A DNA stretch of 64,000 bases, taken from the NCBI RefSeq assembly GCF_924101635.2, contig NZ_CAKMAA020000006.1, positions 62,001 through 126,000 of the forward strand. The letters run 5' to 3'. This DNA comes from Candidatus Nitrotoga sp. HW29 (lineage in GTDB: Bacteria; Pseudomonadota; Gammaproteobacteria; Burkholderiales; Gallionellaceae). A model generated the notes under the pieces. It was given only the letters and a program-made list of their open reading frames with translations. It made no database searches and was not told the DNA's origin. Below, piece after piece: positions 22,112 to 31,000 of this stretch; position 1 is the first letter of the stretch, and each line of letters opens with the position of its first letter. The translations under genes and the position numbers were made by a program.

Positions 22112-22528
22112 TCATGGCTTTATCGGTCTGGATGGCATAACTGCTTCAATTTTTTCAAAACGACGCAAGCGAGTATCTAAATCAATATAAGAATCTCTCT
22201 GTCGTTTTTCTGTTTCTTGCAGGCTATGCGCCTGCATCTCGTCCTGTCCACGCAACCTGCGCAATTCATCTTTCTGAGTCTCGAGTTGTGCTTGAAGATC
22301 AAGTATTTCACGAGTTTGCTGCTTACGAATTTCAATCTGCTGTTTTATAGTATCAGCTTGCTGTTTGATTGTTTCAGTTTGTTGCTTGCCGCTACCCTCC
22401 AGATTGAAAACCCGCTCTTTTAGTTGCCGGATTTGATTATGTGCCTCTTCATCGGTAAAAAAGGCAGCATGTGCAGAAGATGTTGCAATGGCACTCCATC
22501 CAGCAAAGAGTAAAACGTAAAGTTTCAT
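22112..22528 (-). CDS. CpoB-like N-terminal coiled coil without TPR domain
   Basis: 138 aa. A signal peptide ending SSAHA is followed by AFFTDEEAHNQIRQLKERVF and a Gln/Lys-rich coiled coil that ends in RQRDSYIDLDTRLRRFE, the trimerisation module of CpoB/YbgF. The whole TPR half is missing. It closely resembles the start and the end of the coiled coil of the 777-aa CpoB upstream, so it arose by duplication and either lost its TPRs or never had them. It follows pal2 with a 6-bp gap. May interact with CpoB or TolA in the periplasm. Confidence 0.75.
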   Translation of the reverse strand: MKLYVLLFAGWSAIATSSAHAAFFTDEEAHNQIRQLKERVFNLEGSGKQQTETIKQQADTIKQQIEIRKQQTREILDLQAQLETQKDELRRLRGQDEMQAHSLQETEKRQRDSYIDLDTRLRRFEKIEAVMPSRPIKP

Positions 22529-22534
22529 ACCGAT

Positions 22535-23173
22535 CTACTTCGAGGGGTAATTTAAATCAGTACGGCGATTTTGAGCCCAGGATGACTCGTCATGCGTTTT
22601 ATCTTTAGGTTTTTCTTCACCATAGCTGATTGACTCAATCTGGCCTTCTTTGGCGCCTCCCATTAGCAACCTCTTTTTTACTCCATCGGCACGACGCTGC
22701 CCCAAAGCCAAATTGTATTCGCTGCTGCCGCGCTCATCCGAATTTCCTTCAAGACGCACTGTACGGCTTGGATGTTCAGCTAAGTATTCAGCATGTGCTT
22801 GCACAATGGGTTTATCTTGCTCTGATATGGTATCTACATCGGTTGGATAATAAATAACACGCTTAGCCAATAAGCTGTTCGGATTATTAAAGGGGTCATT
22901 TACTCCTGATTCAGCAGAACCAGAACCAGAACCAGAACCAGAACCAGAACCAGAACCAGAACCAGAACCAGGATAAATTGTCACACCGGAGGCACTTGTA
23001 AGCGGGTGATCGCCGGCAGTTACTGATGAATCAGGAAGAGAGGTTGCATCCATGGATGCATCATTGATTCCATCTTTTTTTATACCCGCTCCAGGAGGTT
23101 TGGCGCAAGCAACTAGAAAATGTATTAGTAATACGCCTAGTACTAATTTTTTAAGAATTTTCATTGTATTCAT
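22535..23173 (-). CDS. Second Pal-type lipoprotein
   Basis: 212 aa from the ATG at 23173; a longer frame upstream lacks a ribosome site. The lipobox LVAC places the lipidated cysteine at Cys23. A linker with nine Gly-Ser pairs follows, then the OmpA-like peptidoglycan-binding domain (VIYYPTDVDTI, GNSDERGSSEYNLALGQRRA, SYGEEKP, NRRTDLNY). It is a paralogue of the 486-aa Pal encoded 2.5 kb upstream and differs mainly in its linker. One visible change is GNSDERG where the main Pal has GHADERG. A 181-bp gap before it may hold its own promoter. Confidence 0.88.
   Translation of the reverse strand: MNTMKILKKLVLGVLLIHFLVACAKPPGAGIKKDGINDASMDATSLPDSSVTAGDHPLTSASGVTIYPGSGSGSGSGSGSGSGSGSAESGVNDPFNNPNSLLAKRVIYYPTDVDTISEQDKPIVQAHAEYLAEHPSRTVRLEGNSDERGSSEYNLALGQRRADGVKKRLLMGGAKEGQIESISYGEEKPKDKTHDESSWAQNRRTDLNYPSK
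22917..22970. repeat. Hexanucleotide microsatellite, nine GAACCA units
   Basis: Nine perfect copies of GAACCA on the plus strand, read on the minus strand as nine Gly-Ser dipeptides in the linker of the second Pal. Being a multiple of three, length changes would alter the linker without breaking the frame. Confidence 0.9.
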
Positions 23174-28464: not shown

Positions 28465-29910
28465 CTATTCCTTTGGACTAAATTTGAGATGCAATTCACG
28501 AAAATTGTTGAATAGCGCTGCATCTGGCGGCAAGGGCAACGGTTCCGCTTTCTTAATGGCGCGTTCCACAGCGCTGTCGTACGCCGCGTTCCCACTCGGT
28601 TTGACCAATATTGCATTCAATACCATACCTCCGGGTAGCAAGGTCACGTCAAATTCTGCACGTGCATTATACGGTATATCCGGTAGCATCACGATATTGC
28701 GGCGTATTTTGGCAATAATCTTGGCCTTATATTCAGACACCTCTTTACCTATGGCTGCTGCTTGTGCAGCACGCATGCGCTCTTGCTCAGCCTGTGCTTT
28801 TTGCTCAGCGCGCACGCGCTCCTGTTCAACTTTCGCTCTTTGTTCGGCTTGTGCTTTTTGCTCAGCCAGCTCTTTTTGTTCTGCTAGCAGCTTTTGTTCG
28901 GCACGCGCCCTCTGTTTTGCTCGCTCTTTTTCCTCGGCCTGCTCTTTCTTTTCAGCTAGGGCTTTCTGTTTCGCCTGCATCTTTCGTTCGATTTCAGCTT
29001 TTTGTTCGATTTCAGCTTTTCGTTCGGCCTCAGCTTTTTGTTCTATTTCAGCTTTTTGTTCGGCTTCAGCTTTTTGTTCTATTTCAGCCTTTCGTTCGGC
29101 CTCGGCTTTTCGTTCCGCCTGTGCCTTTTGTTTAGCCAAGGCTCTCTGCTCGGCCTGAGCTTTTTGCTCCGCTTCAATCTTCTGTTCTGCTTCAATCTTA
29201 TGTTCAGCTTGGGCTTTCAATTTAGATTGAGCATCCGTCTTTTCAATTTGACGCTTCGTTTCAGACTTTACCGCTTCTTGAAATTTTTCCTGTAACCGTT
29301 TTTTTTCAGCCAATTCGAAATCGGCTTTAAGTGAAGCTGCAGATTTTATCGGCTCAATTACTTTAGATGGCTCGGCTTTCTCTAATTCAGCTTTAAGGTT
29401 GCGACGTATTTTGGCAACAATATTCGCTTGTTCGGCACGAGCTCGTTCATTTTCAGCGCGCACTTTCTGTTCTTCAATTATTTTTTGCTCAGCTTGCGCT
29501 CTCTGCTCTGCTAATATTTTTTGCTCAGTCTGTATCTTCAACTTTTCCTGTCTCTTTTGCTCAGCCTGTACATTTACTTTTTCTACTTGCTGCTTAGGCT
29601 CCGTCTTTATCGGCTTGGATTTTTCCTGCGGCCTTTTTTTCTCAGATAACGTTATATCAGCCTTGGGTGGTGCCACAGGCTTATTCAACTTGGGGTGCTC
29701 AATCGGTGGTTTAGAAGGTTCAACTTTAACTGGTAATGGAGCTGTCTCTATTCCAGGTAAGCTATCCCAAATATCCACCACCATGCCCTGTGGGGGCTCG
29801 GCCTTCCAGCTGGCACCAAAATATAACAGTACGAAAAATGCACAATGAACAGCCAGTGCCAATGCCCCAGCACGAAGCTTATAGGGTTTGGCGTGCACGA
29901 TCGTGCTCAT
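28465..29910 (-). CDS. tolA: TolA, with duplicated coiled-coil segment
   Basis: 481 aa. One membrane helix at about 14-33, a Pro/Lys region, a long domain II of AEQK-type heptads (about 115-390) and the C-terminal domain III (IIAKIRRNIVMLPDIPYNAR, FDVTLLPGGMV, YDSAVERAIKKAEPLPLP). The segment beginning KADITLSEKKRPQEK (83) recurs as KADFELAEKKRLQEK (196), and IVAKIRRN (164) recurs as IIAKIRRN at the head of domain III (398), evidence of a large internal duplication. TolA couples the TolQR motor to TolB and Pal. Overlaps tolR by 4 bp. Confidence 0.95.
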   Translation of the reverse strand: MSTIVHAKPYKLRAGALALAVHCAFFVLLYFGASWKAEPPQGMVVDIWDSLPGIETAPLPVKVEPSKPPIEHPKLNKPVAPPKADITLSEKKRPQEKSKPIKTEPKQQVEKVNVQAEQKRQEKLKIQTEQKILAEQRAQAEQKIIEEQKVRAENERARAEQANIVAKIRRNLKAELEKAEPSKVIEPIKSAASLKADFELAEKKRLQEKFQEAVKSETKRQIEKTDAQSKLKAQAEHKIEAEQKIEAEQKAQAEQRALAKQKAQAERKAEAERKAEIEQKAEAEQKAEIEQKAEAERKAEIEQKAEIERKMQAKQKALAEKKEQAEEKERAKQRARAEQKLLAEQKELAEQKAQAEQRAKVEQERVRAEQKAQAEQERMRAAQAAAIGKEVSEYKAKIIAKIRRNIVMLPDIPYNARAEFDVTLLPGGMVLNAILVKPSGNAAYDSAVERAIKKAEPLPLPPDAALFNNFRELHLKFSPKE

Positions 29911-30329
29911 CGCCCCGTGGTTTGCGCCAACAGACCAACTTTCTTAATCTGTTGCCGTTGCAACACGTCCATAATACTGATCACTTCTTCATAGCGCACA
30001 TTTTTGTCGGCTGAAATTACAACGGGCTGATCCGCGTTCTGTGCTTGTTTTTGCTTAAGAAGTTCAATTAATTCTTCGCGTGTAACGCTCTGTTCCTGAC
30101 TCTTTTTGCTTCGATCATTTAACGCCAGCGTGGTGTCTTTTTTGATAATTACTTCTAATGGTGCAACAGGTGGTGCGAGAGATTTACCCACGCTGGGCAG
30201 ATCAATTTGCCCAGGGTTCATCAGTGGTGCCGTAATCATAAATATGACTAGCAATACCAACATCACGTCGATGTAGGGCACGACATTAATGTCACTCATT
30301 GGACGCATAGCAGAACGGCGGGGAGTCAT
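29907..30329 (-). CDS. tolR: TolR, motor subunit of Tol-Pal
   Basis: 140 aa ExbD/TolR family. A single N-terminal membrane helix with the proton-channel Asp21 in VPYIDVMLVLLVIFMITAP, then a periplasmic domain (LEVIIKKDTTLALND, QPVVISADKNVRYEEVISIM). Starts and ends in ATGA overlaps with tolQ and tolA, so the three are translationally coupled. Confidence 0.96.
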   Translation of the reverse strand: MTPRRSAMRPMSDINVVPYIDVMLVLLVIFMITAPLMNPGQIDLPSVGKSLAPPVAPLEVIIKKDTTLALNDRSKKSQEQSVTREELIELLKQKQAQNADQPVVISADKNVRYEEVISIMDVLQRQQIKKVGLLAQTTGR

Positions 30330-31000
30330 GGTTGACGTTGCAGTACGTTAGAGAATTCTTCCATAAAAATTTCAAAACGTGATGCCAAGCGCGTAATATC
30401 ATGCGAGTAACGATTGTAAGCAACTACGGCAGGAATAGCGGCAAACAAACCCATCGCAGTGGCTATTAACGCCTCGGCTATGCCGGGTGCCACATGTGCC
30501 AATGTGGCTTGGCCAACATTGGCCAACCCGCGGAATGCATTCATAATTCCCCACACTGTGCCGAATAATCCAACATAAGGACTCACCGAGCCAACTGTAG
30601 CTAGAAAGGCTAAGTGCGATTCAAGCGTATCCATTTCGCGCTGATAAGTGGCGCGCATGGCACGACGCGTACCATCCATCACCGCATTATTATCCATCCC
30701 ATGTTTCTTTTTAAGCTTAAGAAACTCGGTAAAGCCAGCCGCAAAAATTCGTCCCATACTGCCCGAATCGCCACGCATTACGGAAGTATTTTGATACAAC
30801 CTGTTAAGGTCATCATTATTCCAGAATGATTCTTCAAATTCCTCACTTTGCCTCACCGCCTGTCTGACAGTAAACATTTTAAGAAAAATGAACCACCATG
30901 ACATCAATGAAACCAGTAACAATAAACCCATTACCAATTGAACAAGTGCGCTGGCGTTCTGAATTAAATGGATAAACGATAAATTCTGTGTTACATCCAT
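30326..31000 (-). CDS. tolQ: TolQ, proton-channel subunit of Tol-Pal
   Basis: 224 aa from the ATG at 31000, which follows AAAGGA; an ATG at 31027 would overlap ybgC and lacks a site. It has three membrane helices: LVQLVMGLLLLVSLMSWWFI near the N-terminus, LAFLATVGSVSPYVGLFGTV, and ALIATAMGLFAAIPAVVAYN. These are the MotA/TolQ/ExbB features. Forms the TolQ5R2 motor that energises TolA. Confidence 0.95.
   Translation of the reverse strand: MDVTQNLSFIHLIQNASALVQLVMGLLLLVSLMSWWFIFLKMFTVRQAVRQSEEFEESFWNNDDLNRLYQNTSVMRGDSGSMGRIFAAGFTEFLKLKKKHGMDNNAVMDGTRRAMRATYQREMDTLESHLAFLATVGSVSPYVGLFGTVWGIMNAFRGLANVGQATLAHVAPGIAEALIATAMGLFAAIPAVVAYNRYSHDITRLASRFEIFMEEFSNVLQRQP

Follow-up and report, generated by a model that had tools for sequence, protein, structure and literature searches.

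Envelope-spanning parts of the Tol-Pal proteins were lengthened together in Candidatus Nitrotoga, most likely for a wide periplasm

Why should several proteins of one envelope machine be unusually long in the same organism? The question is raised by the Tol-Pal locus in a 64,000-nucleotide stretch of Candidatus Nitrotoga sp. HW29 (contig NZ_CAKMAA020000006.1, positions 62,001 to 126,000; hereafter the window). Here, a sequence-only reading had described a Pal of 486 amino acids (aa), a CpoB of 777 aa and a TolA of 481 aa with an internal duplication, followed by a second pal and a cpoB copy lacking its tetratricopeptide repeat (TPR) domain. Every gene that it named was recovered in its place on the minus strand. 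We consider, with a probability of roughly two in three, that the locus encodes a genuine Tol-Pal system, the flexible spanning parts of which were lengthened together on the Nitrotoga stem, most likely for a wide periplasm, the causal link being what we infer.

The identity of the system follows from its gene content. On the minus strand, the order is ybgC, tolQ, tolR, tolA, tolB, pal1, cpoB1, pal2, cpoB2, queE, queC (ybgC, queE and queC, which flank tol-pal, are presumably correctly so named). Proteins of the window were searched with curated NCBIfam and Pfam profiles at the family cut-offs. TolQ, TolR, TolA, TolB, Pal1, Pal2 and CpoB1 all exceed their NCBIfam cut-offs, and tolQ, tolR, tolA, tolB and pal stand side by side. 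Both Pals carry a lipobox, read by eye (LAAC in Pal1, LVAC in Pal2), and a PF00691 OmpA domain above cut-off, while CpoB1 joins four TolA_bind_tri coil stretches to a C-terminal TPR domain (TIGR02795, 109.7 bits against a cut-off of 90.1, residues 656-773). The internal duplication of TolA is visible by eye: KADxxLxEKKRxQEK occurs twice (83-97, 195-209), as does AKIRRN (166-171, 400-405).

By its nearest relatives, the window is assigned to Candidatus Nitrotoga. In a TolB scan of named genomes (best 80 of 468 relatives), the closest were the Candidatus Nitrotoga strains SPKER (96% identity), CP45 (94%), MKT (93%), LAW (93%) and 1052 (92%), followed by metagenome bins (86-91%), N. fabula ZN8 (81%) and other Gallionellaceae (at most 78%). 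We collected tol loci from 38 genomes (40 stretches) and 80 named contigs, many of them the same contigs, and kept, once each, those with at least two of the five tree genes. This left a tree of 97 tips, 15 of which form the Nitrotoga clade with a local support of 1.0. Nine of these 15 tips span tolQ to queC, and all nine have an identical gene order and a complete long tolA and pal. A tolB search of plasmids returned no match, and neither did a queE search of G018, G015 and G002, for which there was no positive control.

Lengths were compared for the spacers rather than for whole genes, counting the residues of TolA ahead of its C-terminal domain, of Pal beyond its lipobox and of CpoB ahead of its TPR. 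Before counting, we dropped loci whose genes are truncated, TolA frames no longer than 200 aa and one TolA frame with an overcalled start (L105, 415 aa, beginning upstream of tolR), and L049, which offers no TPR anchor, was left out of the CpoB counts. In Nitrotoga, the TolA spacer measures 305-407 residues (12/12 complete copies) against 123-230 in other Gallionellaceae and outgroups (n=74), the Pal spacer 319-525 (10/10) against 147-215 (n=78), and the CpoB spacer 532-696 (all 11 copies with a TPR) against 104-239 (n=76). None of the three ranges overlaps, which bears out the claim that the helical or coiled-coil parts of all three proteins are lengthened. The Nitrotoga medians are 2.5 (TolA), 2.8 (Pal) and 5.4 (CpoB) times those of the other group. 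N. fabula ZN8 encodes a Pal of 448, a CpoB of 725 and a TolA of 450 aa. No Nitrotoga locus with complete genes pairs a long Pal with a CpoB and TolA of normal length, the pattern that the sequence-only reading had named as the sign of independent drift.

Two sets of loci deserve separate mention. In L049 (genome G013; 4744-6837, minus strand), a long CpoB1 of 697 aa has no TPR, its frame ending in the linker. The sequence past its stop resembles that past the cpoB1 stop of the window. What is left is a coil protein, by a real deletion or a draft-assembly error. In G004 and G016 (L040 and L051), which belong to the same GTDB genus and fall outside the Nitrotoga clade, the CpoB coil is doubled (375 and 345 aa) next to a single pal-cpoB pair; their Pal frames, of 224 and 204 aa, are somewhat longer, yet within the range of non-Nitrotoga loci.

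At a wider scale, a class-wide sample of 151 genomes gave Pal matches in 142 and CpoB matches in 135, from which one best frame each was taken (140 Pal, 135 CpoB). Among the matches listed, the Pal frame of our own genome (496) is the longest, with 139 others at most 295, and so is its CpoB frame (785), with 134 others at most 493. Lower-scoring second Pal matches of 349, 349 and 441 (in G080, G164 and G183) and a second CpoB match of 631 below the cut-off (in G093) are not counted here.

The length comparison across related genomes that had been proposed as a check shows the three proteins co-varying on the tree. Using phylogenetically independent contrasts of log lengths, the correlation over all tips is 0.65 for TolA-Pal, 0.72 for Pal-CpoB and 0.66 for TolA-CpoB. 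Within Nitrotoga, r is 0.79 for TolA-Pal (9 contrasts, p=0.007), 0.57 for Pal-CpoB (8 contrasts, p=0.11) and 0.63 for TolA-CpoB (8 contrasts, p=0.07). Because a single event on the stem carries much of the all-tip correlation, the case rests on the pattern of that event and not on the all-tip p-values.

Outside the window, a fourth envelope-spanning protein, a TonB, is long as well. A TonB_C search drew on 61 genomes among the matches listed, and 40 places were fetched (for G001, 2 of 4 TonB matches were listed). One Nitrotoga TonB has a TolA-like helical arm rich in Ala, Glu and Arg, with complete frames of 738, 698, 679, 518 and 485 aa in five genomes (L188, L189, L190, L191 and L192) and linkers of 355-608 residues containing 3-5% proline. 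Five further frames of this kind are cut by contig ends (L193; L194, from our own genome; L195; L199, from N. fabula ZN8; and L201). The counterparts in nine other Gallionellaceae (L203, L204, L205, L209, L210, L212, L222, L223, L224) match the C-domain at 49% identity or more; their linkers are 84-117 residues long and contain 11-33% proline. Not counted as orthologues were L202, L207, L216 and L217 (C-domain 42-45%; frames of 542, 462, 360 and 319 aa), L206 (43%, linker 92) and all frames closer to a Pro-rich TonB. Two long TonBs tested against PF03544 scored 81.1 and 83.2 bits (cut-off 24.6), and in L189 ExbB- and ExbD-like frames, recognized by eye, share the locus with the long TonB, as expected of a TonB. 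No long TonB was found in G014, G015 and G018 among all their listed matches. A residue contributes 0.15 nm in a helix and 0.31 nm in polyproline; by our own arithmetic from these rises, 355-608 residues at 0.15 nm still exceed some 100 residues at 0.31 nm. The available text of PMC12204202 has a helix requiring more residues than a polyproline arm for the same reach.

Lengthening affects the TolA arm, the Pal spacer, the CpoB coil and one TonB arm, and it has passed over TolB, TolR and several further envelope proteins. TolB (423-425 aa) and TolR (139-140 aa) in Nitrotoga are the same as in relatives, M23 frames are similar to those of relatives, and a MotB-like protein with an OmpA domain (255 aa here) has similar frames in relatives by length, orthology being assumed. 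Uniform widening, tested with YhdP, TamB, M23/NlpD and OmpA-domain proteins, was not seen.

Could the long spacers simply be the product of replication slippage, accumulating in tolerant low-complexity segments with no relation to the width of the periplasm? The DNA gives this idea its footing. Tandem Repeats Finder reports units of 18/36/54 bp in tolA and of 90 and 117 bp in the Pal1 spacer (with residue autocorrelation at lags 30 and 39), the lengths differ among species, and the lengthening has one main origin only. Across the window, 16 of the 17 tandem-repeat rows scoring at least 60 fall inside tolA, pal1, pal2 or cpoB2; the remaining one (26-bp unit, 2.2 copies, 31571-31626) lies upstream of the tol genes. 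Yet no array is reported for cpoB1, where the low residue autocorrelation never exceeds 0.16. The 595-residue coil of CpoB1 has a clear 3.6-residue periodicity. Moreover, four functionally linked spanners with differing repeat types were lengthened in one clade, every complete Nitrotoga copy is long, the lengths co-vary inside the genus, and other proteins of the same operon kept their length. We thus regard drift as an unlikely explanation.

Predicted structures are consistent with extended spacers. The AlphaFold model of Pal1, made with seven orthologues, is mostly disordered to residue 78 and then helical at 79-186 and 194-361 (block pLDDT mostly 72-92), although overall confidence for Pal1 is limited (mean pLDDT 68.1, pTM 0.24) and the C-terminal Pal domain itself is modelled poorly. 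For TolA, helices are predicted at 10-32, 113-178 and 253-403 with modest confidence (mean pLDDT 66.8, pTM 0.32). If straight, the 276 helical residues of Pal1 would reach about 41 nm. Because the alignments are shallow and repeat sequence is readily predicted as helical, the model lengths of Pal1 and TolA are estimates of maximum reach only. A crude estimate of TolA reach was not used; its median is 62 nm for 11 Nitrotoga and 28 nm for 93 others (duplicates included), with overlapping ranges of 50-69 and 18-63 nm.

What, then, of the second pal and cpoB? The pair is present in all 12 Nitrotoga loci that cover the region after the long cpoB1, where it is followed by queE and queC; the remaining three of the 15 tips are on contigs that stop short of this region. 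Among the 97-tip tol loci, a tandem pal2-cpoB2 turned up nowhere outside the clade. Two frames labelled cpoB2 there (L127 and L138) proved to be ordinary cpoB genes cut by contig ends, and two relatives outside the clade (L064 and L068) have an extra Pal-like gene elsewhere. In a Pal-domain tree, Pal1 (13 sequences; support 0.83) and Pal2 (12; 0.88) form sister groups within a joint clade (0.976) that excludes 30 outgroup loci, so the tree puts the origin of pal2 and cpoB2 in a single duplication on the Nitrotoga stem.

As had been described, this cpoB copy is without a TPR. CpoB2 matched no NCBIfam model at E 0.001, and Pfam gives only the coiled-coil domain TolA_bind_tri; by its domains it is a CpoB-derived coil protein, which we do not class as CpoB. 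Its stop coincides with the end of the coil in an ordinary CpoB, and since queE begins only 35 bp further on there is no TPR remnant: the domain is cleanly absent. The loss of the TPR might suggest a decaying duplicate without a role, as might the rates of evolution, the median pairwise dN/dS of cpoB2 (0.16) and pal2 (0.155; 12 genes each) being higher than those of the Pal1 domain (0.12), the CpoB1 TPR (0.12), tolB (0.05) and queE (0.08). However, these ratios are well below 1, cpoB2 orthologues keep to 134-140 aa (12 genes), neither gene contains a stop and both are retained in every locus covering the region. Judged by this conservation and by dN/dS, both genes are under purifying selection, and decay is highly improbable. 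A motif in Pal2, GNSDERG, was considered as a lost binding residue (H to N) and dropped, as the best solved match (5n2c) has GNTDERG. The length of the Pal2 Gly-Ser linker differs among species.

The features of the locus are collected in table 1. The start of pal2 is probably the ATG 18 codons into a 230-aa frame (22535-23227). Elsewhere in the window, a 465-aa plus-strand frame (34548-35945) follows an sdhA-like gene and resembles, by eye, a DUF262-type protein.

Table 1. Features of the tol-pal locus, in positions of the window.
Feature	Position	Strand	Description
tolQ	30326..31027	-	233 aa, normal length; TIGR02796 above cut-off; 224-239 aa in Nitrotoga loci
tolR	29907..30329	-	140 aa, normal length; TIGR02801 above cut-off
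tolA	28465..29910	-	481 aa; domain II doubled and extended; TIGR02794 above cut-off
tolB	27187..28461	-	424 aa; internal control, length unchanged; TIGR02800 above cut-off
pal1	25696..27156	-	486-aa lipoprotein, lipobox LAAC (Cys17), C-terminal OmpA/Pal domain; TIGR02802 126.1 bits, cut-off 125.35
Pal1 Ala-rich helical spacer (predicted), residues 79-361	26074..26922	-	repeats of ~30 and 39 residues
cpoB1	23355..25688	-	777 aa: signal peptide, ~600-residue coiled coil, TPR domain
pal2	22535..23173	-	212-aa lipoprotein: lipobox LVAC, short Gly-Ser linker, Pal domain; TIGR02802 127.6 bits, cut-off 125.35
Gly-Ser linker microsatellite of pal2	22915..22971	-	perfect 6-bp unit, 9.5 copies
cpoB2	22112..22528	-	138 aa: signal peptide and one trimerisation coil, without TPR; TolA_bind_tri only

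The proposal that parallel lengthening reflects a wider or unusual periplasm gains from two facts outside the locus: the TonB arm is lengthened too, and the genus, whose members oxidise nitrite, is known for a wide periplasmic space. In the available text of PMC8494671, the name Nitrotoga refers to an 'unusually wide periplasmic space'. We suggest that the force arms (TolA and one TonB), the wall tether (Pal1) and the partner rod (CpoB1) would have been re-scaled to this space. Over much of the cell, the outer membrane may lie too far from the inner membrane and the wall for a TolA, Pal or TonB of normal length. Pal1 and CpoB1 would then form a long-gauge tether and rod. Pal2, with its short flexible linker, and CpoB2, with a coil of ancestral length and no TPR, could be a short-gauge pair for places where the membranes are close (e.g. 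the septum or adhesion sites). In E. coli CpoB, partner binding is carried by the TPR; CpoB2 might perhaps act in mixed trimers with CpoB1. Changes in length may have arisen as repeat units were gained and lost, with selection sifting the results. In its full form, that is, a natural experiment in which TolA, Pal, CpoB and a TonB are re-scaled to a loose 'toga' periplasm and Tol-Pal works at two gauges (long Pal1-CpoB1 in wide regions, short Pal2-CpoB2 at close membranes), this scenario is tentative.

A different purpose for the long parts can also be imagined, in which they serve a crowded, particle-packed periplasm, or a modified division or envelope remodelling, and not membrane distance, with CpoB1 mainly a long structural rod. 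A published micrograph legend, in its available text, describes the wide Nitrotoga periplasm as 'of particulate nature', and the nitrite oxidoreductase is predicted to be periplasmic in the literature as far as available. That NlpD, YhdP and TamB are not longer fits this account, as does the TPR-less CpoB1 of L049, where the rod may be the retained function. On the other hand, the lengthening extends to a TonB, a protein known to act in import rather than in division, and this speaks for reach over division. We rate the account as improbable and continue to favour adjustment to a wide periplasm.

Several observations weigh against that adjustment. The main increase in length happened once, on a single branch, and its coincidence with a wide periplasm therefore counts as about one observation. 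Within Nitrotoga, rank permutation gives weak results (p=0.06 for TolA-Pal, 0.07 for Pal-CpoB and 0.17 for TolA-CpoB), and the contrasts are weaker outside the genus (r = 0.19, p=0.15; r = 0.40, p=0.0007; and r = 0.31, p=0.02, in the same order). Class-wide and without Nitrotoga, Pal and CpoB frame lengths show a Spearman correlation of 0.15 (p=0.08) and a Pearson correlation of 0.22 (p=0.01; n=133). A Pro-rich TonB of 243-256 aa exists in four genomes of the same genus. Other proteins of the envelope did not follow. The YhdP frames of 14 Nitrotoga, at 1288-1309, lie within the 1271-1401 spanned by 21 other Gallionellaceae (omitting broken or weak matches of G002 and G012). TamB was found in 24 of 61 genomes, and its frames in six Nitrotoga (1304-1318) again lie within the range seen elsewhere (1048-1501, omitting one weak 729-aa match). 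NlpD, identified by eye from its LysM, M23 and lipobox, is no longer either: two Nitrotoga have 320 and 319 aa, three relatives 330, 324 and 335. By its lipobox, NlpD is an outer-membrane lipoprotein that must reach the wall. Rigid bridges and one protein linking the outer membrane to the wall have thus gained no length, which argues that the membranes still approach each other in places, or that the space is not wide throughout. Finally, the periplasm of an N. fabula isolate is described, in the available text, as 'not enlarged as much' as in other Nitrotoga, yet the N. fabula genome compared here, labelled ZN8, encodes long proteins (microscopy and genome come from different strains).

The lengthening may or may not be tied to nitrite oxidation. 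PF09459 (EB_dh), which we take to be a marker of the nitrite oxidoreductase gamma subunit, was found in 12 of the 19 genomes of the genus; G014 and G018 (L050 and L053) have a lengthened TolA and Pal and no match. In 9 of 10 drafts the family sits within 6 kb of the start of its contig, and each of the two single-contig Nitrotoga genomes (G006 and G008) has three copies. Multi-copy genes near contig ends make absence from draft bins weak evidence. The wide-envelope trait may not depend on nitrite oxidation; alternatively, these genes may be missing from the G014 and G018 bins.

That periplasm width may set the lengths of envelope-spanning proteins is proposed, for TolA and TonB arms, in the available text of PMC12204202. 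With a name-giving wide periplasm and four spanners lengthened next to controls that are not, Nitrotoga offers a directly testable system for the co-scaling of trans-envelope machines. It also puts forward candidate genes for the anatomy behind the name of the genus, and its natural long spacers and stripped-down CpoB are material for finding which parts of Tol-Pal measure distance. Our literature search (most subscription journals lay outside it) found nothing on Nitrotoga and Tol-Pal and, for Nitrotoga and TonB, nothing beyond a community study.

Compared with canonical Tol-Pal with CpoB, as in Escherichia coli and other Proteobacteria, the Nitrotoga locus has all core genes in the order usual in Gallionellaceae (ybgC-tolQ-tolR-tolA-tolB-pal-cpoB-queE-queC). 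It differs in Pal, CpoB and TolA spacers beyond the range of relatives and in the extra pal2 and TPR-less cpoB2 between cpoB and queE. The 2025 survey PMC12204202 reports, in its available text, a TolA domain II of 110-335 residues, a TonB domain II of up to 245 residues, which the 355-608 of the Nitrotoga TonB linker exceed, and a weak correlation between TolA and TonB lengths (0.28). It proposes periplasm width as a possible cause of arm length, with few periplasm measurements to test this. Its main text, as far as available, does not include Nitrotoga, and here Pal and CpoB change as well, in a genus with a published wide periplasm. The linker of Pal is already known to matter: in the available text of PMC12826056, the length of the E. 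coli Pal linker affects envelope function, that linker being disordered and shortened by 8 or 24 residues, in contrast to the predicted helical spacer of about 280 residues in Nitrotoga Pal1. Another parallel is engineered. According to the available text of PMC5736177, a lengthened Lpp makes the E. coli periplasm 3-4 nm wider and puts an end to Rcs signalling, which a lengthened RcsF restores fully or partly. In both cases, the reach of a spanning protein would have to match the distance between inner and outer membranes; there the change is an engineered 3-4 nm, whereas in Nitrotoga it is natural and involves at least four proteins.

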